Origin: Leptolyngbya sp. SIOISBB
GTDB taxonomy: Bacteria > Cyanobacteriota > Cyanobacteriia > Phormidesmidales > Phormidesmidaceae
Direction: 5' to 3'
DNA: 64,000 nucleotides
Assembly (NCBI GenBank): GCA_010671905.1
Contig: JAAHII010000001.1
Coordinates: forward strand, 6,720,026 to 6,784,025
In this document: one piece after another, positions 21,043 through 33,018 of the stretch
Layout of the letters: each line of letters starts with the position of its first letter
Numbering within the stretch: the first letter of the stretch is position 1
Notes under the pieces: model-generated
Database searches by the model: none
Told to the model about the DNA's origin: nothing
Seen by the model: only the letters and a program-made list of their open reading frames with translations
Made by a program: the position numbers and the translations under genes

Positions 21043-21112
21043 GGATTTCCTAAAACTGTCGTGAAGTAGACGAGTTCAGAACGGTAAACTGGATTTCTGT
21101 TTGTGTCCTTAG

Positions 21113-21285
21113 TTATTCGCCACCTGAACAACCGCTGGTTAGGTAACTTCAACGCGATGCAGGCCACTATTCTGGGCTTCGCCGGTGCCGGTGAACCTCA
21201 TTGCCTGCGGCACCTCTCCTTGAGAAGGAGAGGTTAGGTGAGGTTCTGCACTGTGAGACTCCACGATGCATCAGGTGGCGAATAA
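21113..21285. repeat. 173-bp unit with 15-base terminal inverted repeats
   Basis: TTATTCGCCACCTGA at 21113-21127 is complementary to 21271-21285. The interior contains the CCTCTCCTT-GAG-AAGGAGAGG palindrome that is also the MITE target at 32 kb. No target duplication is visible. Confidence 0.55.
21196..21233. repeat. Palindromic repeat, uninterrupted copy of the MITE target
   Basis: GCCTGCGGCACCTCTCCTT and flanks (21196-21221) match 32184-32209 at 24 of 26 positions. Here the palindrome CCTCTCCTT-GAG-AAGGAGAGG (21213-21233) is intact, whereas the copies near 32.2 and 32.6 kb are each split by an insertion. Confidence 0.7.
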
Positions 21286-21315
21286 GTCGTGACACTAACG
21301 ATTTCTGAAATGTGA

Positions 21316-29473: not shown

Positions 29474-30606
29474 CAGGAGTTACGCATTGACAGCAGAATG
29501 CATGTATGGGTTGAAAATCAAAGATGTTGAATAACCTATTCCGTTGCGGATTCTGACCAAACCTTCCACGGCGCACTGCACGCTCAACCTCTACGTCCGC
29601 TATCTGCTAACCCAACCGCAAGGTTCCGGCTGTTGCGAACTGGCTGAGATCCTCAAAACGGTGTCCCACGACAGCGTCAATCGCTTTCTGTGCCGAGAGC
29701 GCTACGAGCCGAAGGATCTGTTGGACGAGTTAGTCTCTCAAGGCTGGATTGACTTAGTCGGCGGTGTTGTGAGCGTGGACGATACCGTGCTGGAAAAGCC
29801 TTATGCGCAGCGAAAAGCGACCGCTCTGTTGGGCTATTTCTGGAGCAGTAAAGCCGCCCAGCCGGTGCTGGGACTTTCACTGGTCACACTTTACTACACC
29901 AGCCTCAATGGCTTGCGGGTGCAGATTAACTACCGGCTCTATGACAAAGCGGAGGGGAAAACTAAAAACCAATACTTTCAGGAAATGTGGCAGGAGGTGG
30001 GGCCGTGGGGTCTGCGCCCTCGCGCCGTCACGAGCGATACTTGGGATGCCGCCAAGGCCAATCTCAATGTGCTCAAAGACGACCAGACGGGATTTTTAGT
30101 CGGCGTTGCCAAGAATCGACTGGTGCGGTTGACGCCTCACCAGCCCTATCAACGGGTCGAAGCCCTGGAGATTCCCGAGGCTGGGAGGCTGGTCTATCTT
30201 AAGGGAGTCGGGCGAGTCAAAGTCTTTTGCCAGCGCTTCAAAAAACGAATCGTGTCGGTATTATGCTTTGTACTTGCCTGACCCTGAGGCGCTAGAAGCA
30301 GCCGCTGCGGCTGACTTTGAGCAATTGCACACCCAACACTGGGGCATTGAATGTTTTCACCGGGCCGGGAAACAGTTGTGTGCCCTCAAACGCTTTCGGG
30401 TGCGCTTAAAGGAAGCTATTCACACCCATATCTTCTGCCTTTGTCGAGTTGGAGTTGCAAGTCTGGCACCAGCAGTTAGGCAATTGGTATGAGCTACAAC
30501 GTCACCTCTATCAAGAGGTCGCTCGCCAGTTCATCCTCCAATCACCGCTGATGGGGAGGACCGCTTAAATTATGGTTTTGTTGAATTTGTCAATGCGTAA
30601 GTCCTG
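29474..30606 (+). mobile_element. Insertion sequence with 19-bp inverted ends and 5-bp target duplication
   Basis: The ends read CAGGAGTTACGCATTGACA (29474-29492) and the complement of CAGGACTTACGCATTGACA (30588-30606): 18 of 19 match. Both sides are flanked by GCTAT (29469-29473 and 30607-30611), a 5-bp target duplication. The 1133-bp element holds one transposase gene in three frames. The intact ends and duplication point to a fairly recent insertion. It landed 26 bases past the pcxA stop codon. Confidence 0.88.
29544..30568 (+). pseudogene. DDE transposase (IS4/IS701-like), frameshifted twice
   Basis: The first segment (29544-30281, TTG start) has the N-terminal domain SHDSVNRFLCRERYEPKDLL, the first Asp in VVSVDDTVLEKPYA, and the second Asp in VTSDTWDAAKANL. 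The second segment contains QHWGIECFHRAGKQ with the catalytic Glu, and the third FVELELQVWHQQLGNWYELQ ending at 30568. The first shift is an extra A in the A6 run 30240-30245 (restored reading FKNESCRYYALYLPDPEAL). The second lies near 30437-30445. If the shifts are real, the copy is dead; if sequencing errors, it is a normal transposase of about 340 residues. Exact IS family is uncertain. Confidence 0.82.
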
Positions 30607-32025: not shown

Positions 32026-32183
32026 CAGGAGTTACCGGTGATTGCGTTTGGGGAAATGGAATTGAGTGCTCTGTAACCCACGATAGGGGTTGAACTGAGA
32101 GGCAGACGAGTGCAGGAGCGATCGCTAACAACCATGCTAAACCTCATCCAGGTCCAGAAGTGGAGTTTTGGTATCTGGCCCGA

Positions 32184-32209
32184 CCTCACCGCCTGCGGCA
32201 CCTCTCCTT
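32184..32209. repeat. Second copy of the GCCTGCGGCACCTCTCCTT repeat
   Basis: It matches 21196-21221 at 24 of 26 positions. Its palindromic continuation is split by the MITE at 32217-32418. Confidence 0.65.
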
Positions 32210-32216
32210 CTCAAGG

Positions 32217-32418
32217 CTACGGCTTATACATAAGTCATTCCCTAGAACACGCCTGAGCTTGGATCCCCCTTAATCCCCCTTAAAAAGGGGGAAATCCCAG
32301 TTTGAATCGGATAGAGCCCCCTTCTTCTAGCGCAGCCATGCCCGGAGGGCTTTAGGGGGCAGCAACAGCGGGGGATCGGCCATTGGCGCTGAGTTCTAGA
32401 GATGTGTATAAGCGGCAG
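32217..32418. mobile_element. MITE-like element 1 with Tn5-type ends and 11-bp target duplication
   Basis: A 202-bp non-coding element. The left end CTACGGCTTATACATAAGT and right end (complement CTGCCGCTTATACACATCT) are imperfect inverted repeats. The right end matches the Tn5 mosaic-end pattern at 17 of 19 bases. Directly outside both ends is CCTTCTCAAGG (32206-32216 and 32419-32429), an 11-bp duplication as in IS4-family elements. The interior has GC-rich hairpins (CCCCCTTAAAAAGGGGG). It needs a transposase in trans. Confidence 0.82.
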
Positions 32419-32468
32419 CCTTCTCAAGGAGAGGCTTAGTTAGACTCTGGTTCCTCTCCTTACCAAGA

Positions 32469-32634
32469 CTGCCGCTTATACATAAGTTTCTGGTTGGTCG
32501 TTTCCAGAGATCTAGCCCCCCTACATCCCCCAATTCTGGGGGACTGTGAACTCCGGCCTCCCCCCAAAGTTGGGGGGATAAAGGGGGCCAATGCAGCATT
32601 TTGCGGTCTTATTAGAGATGTGTATAAGCGGCAG
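32469..32634. mobile_element. MITE-like element 2 with Tn5-type ends and 11-bp target duplication
   Basis: A 166-bp non-coding element. The left end is CTGCCGCTTATACATAAGT (16 of 19 bases like the Tn5 outside end) and the right end complement is CTGCCGCTTATACACATCT, identical to element 1's right end. CCTTACCAAGA flanks both sides (32458-32468 and 32635-32645). Removing it rejoins CCTCTCCTT-ACC-AAGAAGAGG, the same palindrome family hit by element 1 in the same register. Confidence 0.84.
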
Positions 32635-32645
32635 CCTTACCAAGA

Positions 32646-33018
32646 AGAGGTGAGGTTTTGCTAAGCAAGCACAACTCCAGTTTTCAACTTGGACATGGTT
32701 TAATAGCTCCTAAAAACGTCAGAGCTTATTGTAAGACAAAGCAATTTTGGGTGACGGTGGTCAGGGCTGCAGTTCGCTCCCAAGGGGATGAAGGATCGAG
32801 CGGACAGACAGGATAAATGGGCATGACAAAGGGCATTGGGTGGGCGGCGTTGGTGGTGATGTTGTAGAACCGATTGTGCTGGTTGAGGACACTGAGATCA
32901 AGGTGACTGAAAACGCTACGGTTTCCGAAATCCTGCCTACATTTGGCGGTTCCTGTGTTAGAAACGAGGAACTTAGGGGGTGTCGCCTAGTGTCGCGAGT
33001 AGTAGCAAGGGGATCGGA
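32646..33018. other. Intergenic region before the kinase gene
   Basis: About 370 bases. Overlapping frames occur on both strands near 32760-33110 (for example PIVLVEDTEIKVTENATVSE on plus), but none has family resemblance or a good ribosome site. It presumably holds the kinase promoter. Confidence 0.4.

Follow-up and report, generated by a model that had tools for sequence, protein, structure and literature searches.

Miniature elements with Tn5-like ends at the axis of repeated palindromes in Leptolyngbya sp. SIOISBB, and the target choice of an IS50-like transposase

The stretch of DNA analysed here (the window; 64,000 nucleotides of Leptolyngbya sp. SIOISBB, contig JAAHII010000001.1, positions 6,720,026 to 6,784,025) contains two short elements, each of which interrupts a palindrome of the same kind in the same register. 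This raises the question of which enzyme moved them, and of what it recognises in its target: the sequence of the palindrome arms, their dyad symmetry, or an extruded hairpin. Our reading, to which we assign a probability of about 85%, is that they are MITEs of an intact IS50-group element of the IS4 family, whose trans-acting transposase would prefer dyad-symmetric targets of the form CYC-N...N-GRG.

Elements, duplications and host repeats in the window

The earlier note on this DNA had placed two MITEs with Tn5-like ends in 32206-32645, and both are found there, as elements of 202 bp (32217-32418) and 166 bp (32469-32634). The perfect 11-bp duplications that it described flank both of them at the positions first given, and the common palindrome register holds as well: the duplications are centred on CCTCTCCTTNNNAAG(G/A)AGAGG, each being identical to the palindrome core CCTTNNNAAG(G/A). 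The outer arms CCTCT/AGAGG stay single-copy, and the complete 21-bp palindrome is present at both insertions. The empty palindrome claimed at 21213-21233 is an exact match. The features are the following.

21099..21299, strand not assigned: second host repeat H2 around the empty palindrome, with 29-nt inverted ends that are 83% complementary
21213..21233, plus strand: empty palindrome CCTCTCCTTGAGAAGGAGAGG, rank 4 of 63,978 by the arm profile described below
32138..32702, strand not assigned: host repeat H, with inverted ends TAAACC...GGTTTA, which holds palindromes P1 and P2 and is 180 bp long when empty (empty homologue: L312)
32201..32205, plus strand: left arm of palindrome P1, CCTCT, single copy
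32206..32216, plus strand: target duplication 1, left copy, CCTTCTCAAGG
32217..32418, plus strand: type A non-autonomous IS50-type element, 202 bp, CTACGGCTTATACATAAGT ... AGATGTGTATAAGCGGCAG
32419..32429, plus strand: target duplication 1, right copy, CCTTCTCAAGG
32430..32434, plus strand: right arm of palindrome P1, AGAGG
32453..32457, plus strand: left arm of palindrome P2, CCTCT
32458..32468, plus strand: target duplication 2, left copy, CCTTACCAAGA
32469..32634, plus strand: type B non-autonomous IS50-type element, 166 bp
32562..32572, plus strand: inner palindrome core of the type B element, GCCTCC[CCCCAAAGTTG]GGGGGA
32635..32645, plus strand: target duplication 2, right copy, CCTTACCAAGA
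32646..32650, plus strand: right arm of palindrome P2, AGAGG

Exact minus-strand copies of the right end CTGCCGCTTATACACATCT lie at 32400-32418 and 32616-32634; the window has three matches to this end with up to three mismatches, against a shuffle mean of 0.02. This end differs from what we take to be the Tn5 mosaic end at 2 of 19 positions, which counts against a sequencing-adapter artefact, and such an artefact is ruled out by the fact that the same ends bound a transposase gene elsewhere in the genome. Both window elements are short, contain no transposase gene, have the ends of an autonomous element and are flanked by target duplications, as is characteristic of MITEs. The first 23 bp of the type B element (CTGCCGCTTATACATAAGTTTCT) are common to the autonomous copy, and the other MITE copies in the genome are mostly 163-204 bp long with the ends of the 1482-bp element. 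Among the paired elements, the outermost end bases are mainly of two forms, CTGCCG or CTACGG, whether the end is a left or a right one.

The target palindromes sit inside larger inverted repeats, H and H2. At L312, host repeat H is 180 bp long and both of its palindromes are empty, one of them with two mismatches; this homologue is direct evidence for two insertions into a pre-existing host repeat. The earlier note had allowed that the palindromes might themselves belong to the element; we reject this, since perfect duplications are also present at sites without the palindrome and the host is doubly empty at L312.

A further transposase ORF of the window (29544-30281, 245 aa) is of the IS701 type and covers model positions 2-221 of 318 with 228.9 bits against a curated cut-off of 250; it looks truncated by a frameshift or a stop.

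A likely source of the transposase

An IS4-family element with the same ends, which the earlier note proposed to look for, is present in the genome at C1:7532291-7533772. It is one of two copies of about 1.48 kb with MITE-type ends and the intact one, the other being split into two frames; it is 1482 bp long and encodes a 473-aa transposase. The protein matches the NCBIfam model transpos_IS4_3 with an E-value of 5.5e-109 and scores 364.8 bits with NF033590, whereas the next IS4 model gives 43.2. Among solved structures the match is Tn5 transposase (E 8.3e-33), and every one of the six distinct solved sequences found with E up to 1 is either Tn5 transposase or the inhibitor form of it. The residues D97, D199 and E340 (DDE) and Y333/R336/E340/K347 (YREK) are invariant or nearly so among 11 aligned proteins, and thus the protein carries the DDE and YREK signature by which the IS4 family is recognised.

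According to the accessible text of PMC2266710, the IS50 subgroup has direct repeats of 8-9 bp, the end consensus CW------Y---CA-A--W- and a size of 1350-1550 bp. The element resembles IS50/Tn5 in its transposase family, which is nearest to the Tn5/IS50 type, in the DDE and YREK residues, in its size of 1482 bp and in its ends: 16 of 19 terminal positions are inverted, and CTGCCGCTTATACACATCT and CTGCCGCTTATACATAAGT fit the consensus at every stated position when compared by eye. It differs in its direct repeats, which are mostly 11 bp in this genome, and we therefore class it as an IS50-like variant rather than a typical member. The intact copy's own duplication is imperfect (CCTTTCAAAGG/CCTTGAGAAGG). 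This insertion sequence is the likely driver of the MITEs, and the common ends suggest that it is the 473-aa protein which moves them.

Transposases of the ISAs1 and IS1182 types were rejected as MITE drivers, though they occur between the same ends in elements of 1368, 1369, 1388 and 2078 bp. Their junctions fall inside the inner palindromes of ordinary MITEs, and they are therefore read as nested passengers. The ISAs1-type elements interrupt the inner palindrome of type A MITEs at L070, L025 and L071 (C1:1012330-1013697, 3569993-3571361 and 6554404-6555791), which represents a second case of palindrome-associated insertion, and an IS1182-type element lies in the inner palindrome of a type B MITE at L066 (C1:7529323-7531400). 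At C1:891541, 4818619 and 7384779, elements of about 340 bp have inserts of about 180 bp in the type B inner palindrome, with ends like those of L066 (TTGATACCGCTGGCGAAATATTTCG and variants). Elements of at least three kinds have thus inserted into palindromes of this genome, nested in one another. The same genome also has a second, distant IS50-group element, L134 (G000 C1:3194885-3195946), with CTGACTTTTC ends and a 9-bp duplication; arm pairing at its site begins only at the third position.

Insertions and target choice across the genome

The survey covered the 8.34-Mb genome (two contigs) with both end patterns. The genome-wide search that the earlier note had called for gave 76 matches with up to three mismatches for the first pattern and none for the reversed pattern; the second gave 74, a list overlapping the first, and one when reversed. 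Pairing by script at up to four mismatches, in the fetched stretches, yielded 110 ends, 48 pairs and 14 unpaired ends, three of which were used to mend one pair and add another, giving 49 paired elements. A duplication of 9-12 bp with no more than one mismatch flanks 29 of the 49, and 21 of these duplications are perfect (fourteen of 11 bp, four of 10, two of 12 and one of 9).

The earlier note had also asked whether the copies centre on the palindrome. This holds for 24 of the 49 elements, counted with up to one mismatch per outer arm and two per core, while 25 lie outside the strict register. These 25 go halfway towards what the earlier note had named as telling against it, copies at unrelated sequences: they are off register, yet the 14 well-resolved ones without CCTCT/AGAGG arms share a CYC-N-[9-12 bp]-N-GRG tendency. 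Random placement would be expected to give about 0.0002 register insertions (49 elements, about 32 palindromes, 8.3 Mb, copying of occupied hosts ignored). Occupied hosts have in fact been copied, since the insertions at 1153108 and 4869881 have their flanks and a mutated duplication in common, and the number of independent register insertions is therefore below 24. Empty palindromes with up to two mismatches number 8 or 9, the ninth (1501504) having a different stem; the thresholds for occupied (24) and empty (8-9) palindromes differ, which makes their ratio rough.

Such copying, and the small number of empty palindromes left, would fit a palindrome and MITE that spread together as one mobile unit, the common register then reflecting only a few insertions. 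We consider this unlikely, because the 24 insertions involve two element types in both orientations and several different central triplets that are identical left and right (ATC, CTC, GCC, GCG, TTC, ACC and GAG), because host H is empty at L312 and perfect duplications occur outside the palindrome, and because a relative in another cyanobacterial genome (G338, see below) occupies the same kind of site.

The central triplet is equal on both sides in 14 of the 24 register insertions and unequal in the other 10, nine of which mismatch nowhere else; a single simple insertion therefore does not describe these 10. The confinement of mismatches to the triplet in 9 of 24 would be natural for conservative site-specific recombination with a 3-bp overlap between CCTT and AAGG half-sites. 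We give this mechanism hardly any credence, the least of the alternatives discussed here, as perfect duplications of 9-12 bp are found at sites without CCTT/AAGG and a DDE/YREK transposase is found between the same ends. The best explanation appears to be recombination between copies. The right end of host H has nine matches in the genome, eight of them with a recognisable left end; five of these eight (L304, L305, L307, L309 and L310) have one element between the P1 left arm and the P2 right arm and lack the middle part present in L312, two others (L306 and L308) carry two elements, and the eighth, L312, is empty. If the elements in P1 and P2 recombined, the intervening stretch would be lost and the duplications left unequal. 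An alternative for the one-element hosts is a form of the host with a single palindrome. Unequal repeats of ISRm22 have also been ascribed to recombination between copies, according to the accessible text of Tobes and Pareja (2006, PMC1525189).

To describe the target itself, a profile of six arm bases per side was built from the 14 well-resolved insertions without exact CCTCT/AGAGG arms, at least three of which (194285, 7749006 and 7749110) lie, by eye, in other palindromes or C/G-rich inverted runs. C stands at -2 in 13 of the 14 and G at +2 in 13; all have T or C at -3, and 10 have A at +3. This profile, which comes from other sites, ranks the empty palindrome at 21213-21233 fourth among 63,978 window positions, and the arm sequence therefore matters. 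The fifth best target is the inner palindrome of the type B element (32562-32572), and in another type B copy exactly this site is occupied by a type A element (C1:7749006-7749389). Since the 14 insertions share the CYC...GRG tendency without the exact arms, the enzyme, judged from its insertion sites, reads sequence at least partly in this genome, and a hairpin loop is not required. The targeting of a hairpin loop, as the earlier note had suggested, is one possibility for this genome; it has better, though not conclusive, support in certain relatives with CTGTCTCTT ends.

Symmetry probably adds to the arm-sequence preference, because three higher-ranking sites per 64 kb correspond to some hundreds genome-wide, a rough scaling that is inflated by host copying, and yet half of the elements sit in a few dozen palindromes. 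Its role beyond sequence preference may be played by a transposase dimer that reads two half-sites or by an extruded hairpin. Off the main register, arm pairing showed no excess over an arm shuffle (18 insertions with 63 pairs; shuffle mean 58.3, with as many pairs or more in 202 of 2000 shuffles), and in 6 of the 18 the best axis was no more than 0.5 bp away from the centre of the duplication.

We suppose the following sequence of events. The transposase of C1:7532291-7533772 would act in trans on the ends of non-autonomous copies and insert these at staggered cuts spaced by 9-12 bp (of the 21 perfect duplications, 14 measure 11 bp). Its preferred targets would be dyad-symmetric, with CYC-N...N-GRG arms outside the cut. 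Given this preference, the repeated palindrome CCTCTCCTTNNNAAGGAGAGG, which occurs in at least two older inverted-repeat elements, would offer a near-ideal landing site at its axis. The ends, the duplications, their register, the empty host repeat, the ends common to the transposase copy and the arm consensus can be read directly from the DNA.

Relatives and known systems

Insertions of IS50-like elements in other genomes were collected from several sources. Genome contigs gave 27 loci, 10 of 386 genomes of the phylum had a match, as did 13 of 15 genomes from which loci had come, orders around three centres had matches in 12 of 345, 9 of 349 and 41 of 243 genomes, and viral contigs gave 7 loci, 2 of them with callable ends; the longer locus lists were sampled in part. 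Ends were called by a script from inverted repeats and duplications, blind to palindromy. Of 176 loci, 74 were called and 102 had no callable ends, and 57 sites were left after duplicate removal; a set of 60 sites consists of these 57 minus two rows of the window genome plus five found by copy comparison. As controls we used IS256 elements from the order of Alishewanella, called with nearly the same script (20 of 40 loci without callable ends, 20 sites used; 24 sites after duplicate removal under a looser end rule). A start with CT or CA was required of the IS50-like calls but not of the IS256 calls.

The duplication centre and the best symmetry axis are no more than 0.5 bp apart at 29 of 57 IS50-like sites and at none of the 20 IS256 sites. 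At least four of the first five arm positions are paired at 29 of 60 and 1 of 20 sites, respectively, and in total 230 of 360 arm positions are paired (arm shuffle mean 154, maximum 181 in 5000, a comparison that also reflects differences between lineages) against 27 of 120. These controls bear on the possibility that insertion is random and that elements persist only in non-coding palindromes. Palindromes and terminators as a rule lie between genes, and selection against insertion in genes is general, which would favour such survival. It leaves the exact centring unexplained, though, and the IS256 elements do not share the pattern, so that we regard this explanation as very improbable.

The pattern is clearest in the CTGTCTCTT-ended branch, where 13 of 16 sites exceed the pairing threshold and 85 of 96 arm positions are paired (arm shuffle mean 46.3, maximum 68 in 5000). 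Whether 8, 9 or 10 bp long, its duplications have the same centring, as at CCCC[GGTTTACC]GGGG, CCCC[GCCAACGGC]GGGG and CCCG[GCACTGAGGC]CGGG. When arms were permuted only among close relatives, in four groups with 13 sites in all (from two Alishewanella species, G687, G414 and two viral contigs), P was 12/6912. Several sites of relatives are terminator-like, e.g., AAAAAGGCA[CCCATTGGG]TGCCTTTTTT, and five hand-picked sites (three from CTGTCTCTT-ended relatives, two cyanobacterial) fold well as single strands, with z from -3.4 to -6.3. In the window genome, 12-bp duplications occur on an even palindrome (CCCAACATTGGG, two copies) and 11-bp duplications on an odd one. All this would be expected if the transposase recognised an extruded hairpin or cruciform and cut symmetrically near its tip, the duplication length following the palindrome. 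We hold this structure-guided insertion to be possible and rather doubtful. None of the four permutation groups is significant singly (as high a value came from 2 of 24, 2 of 24, 3 of 6 and 1 of 2 permutations), insertions in the window genome occur at CYC...GRG-like arms without a clear hairpin, and some sites are off the axis: L172, and the palindromic sites 194285 and 1202598, where 10-bp duplications appear so by eye. Besides, a symmetric dimer with flexible spacing on a duplex palindrome predicts the same pattern. Palindromy is also missing from two lineages, namely the CTGACTTTTC-ended sites in other genomes (0 of 4 over the threshold) and the G1072 sites (0 of 5).

Sites of near relatives support the reading that we prefer, a sequence preference with dyad symmetry. 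In the sister lineage of the window element, 4 of 6 sites exceed the pairing threshold. In G338, another cyanobacterial genome, with a transposase 58% identical to that of the window genome, four of the five copies have ends that could be called, and three of these four lie at palindromes, CCTCC[CCTTAGCAAGG]GGAGG (two sites) and CCTCC[CCTTATAAAGG]GGAGG, with 11-bp duplications; extra arm covariation was not found within G338 (6 of 24 permutations as high). In the CTAATCYTGTAGGGG-ended lineage 2 of 12 sites exceed the threshold, and by eye the sites are perhaps offset by about one base. Palindrome targeting in every lineage of the IS50 group is rejected, as 31 of 60 sites pair at fewer than four of five arm positions. 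On a tree of the transposases the palindrome label was not clearly clustered (13 changes, 84 of 500 shuffles as low); this tree includes one wrong reading frame (L274, a very long branch), leaves out three short rows and takes its labels from a site table earlier than the 60-site one. Single IS50-like insertions at palindromes were also seen in two further phyla, at L112 (Paenibacillus algorifonticola) and L090/L145 (Pedobacter rhodius), an example of such a site being CATTCATCCCCCA[CTTTAGAAG]AGGGGGATGAATG.

The nearest known parallel is ISRm22 of Sinorhizobium meliloti, an IS4-family element whose nine of nine chromosomal copies and single pSymB copy lie in REPs at the axis of palindromy, as given in the accessible text of Tobes and Pareja (2006, PMC1525189). 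It resembles the window elements in its family, in insertion at the axis and in imperfect duplications. As far as the accessible texts go, the two differ in that ISRm22 belongs to the subgroup IS4Sa (PMC2266710), has 6-bp repeats and no described MITE cohort, whereas the window genome has IS50-group elements with mostly 11-bp repeats and non-autonomous copies; ISRm22 copies are all in REPs, whereas about half of the copies here lie outside the main palindrome. IS1272, grouped with the IS1182 family, likewise targets stem-loops, but the accessible text of PMC5678879 describes it as replacing the inverted repeat without duplication, while the window elements keep the palindrome and duplicate its core. 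In the part of PMC1525189 available, the insertion point given for ISPsy8 is the axis of symmetry of a predicted hairpin, and members of the families IS3, IS110, IS256 and IS5 are described as targeting REPs; ISPsy8, IS1397 and IS621 are alike in inserting into repeated palindromes and differ in family (IS3, IS110). The same source, citing others, notes that Tn5 target sites are often palindromic, with G/C pairs at the repeat ends. The accessible text of PMC2266710 contains no mention of hairpin or terminator targeting by the IS50 subgroup, and in the open literature we found no report of palindrome or terminator targeting across the IS50 group, palindromic Tn5 targets being mentioned in the accessible part of PMC1525189. 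As far as this search shows, the IS50-group case, with its mostly 11-bp duplications and its MITE cohort, and the wider pattern in IS50-group relatives are new.

Genomics relies heavily on Tn5 transposase, whose target bias is regarded as no more than mild. We tentatively suggest that several Tn5/IS50 branches may be hairpin seekers, which read an inverted-repeat dyad, terminators included, and insert at its axis, with a duplication of 8-12 bp that follows the palindrome; the odds seem to us somewhat against it. If it were true, the palindromic tendency of Tn5 targets would be a trace left by an ancestor that was guided by structure or symmetry. If relatives, whether near or distant, choose the axes of palindromes and terminators for insertion, target choice in this group would become approachable by comparing enzymes with and without this preference. 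The case also illustrates how palindromic repeats turn into nested landing pads within a genome.
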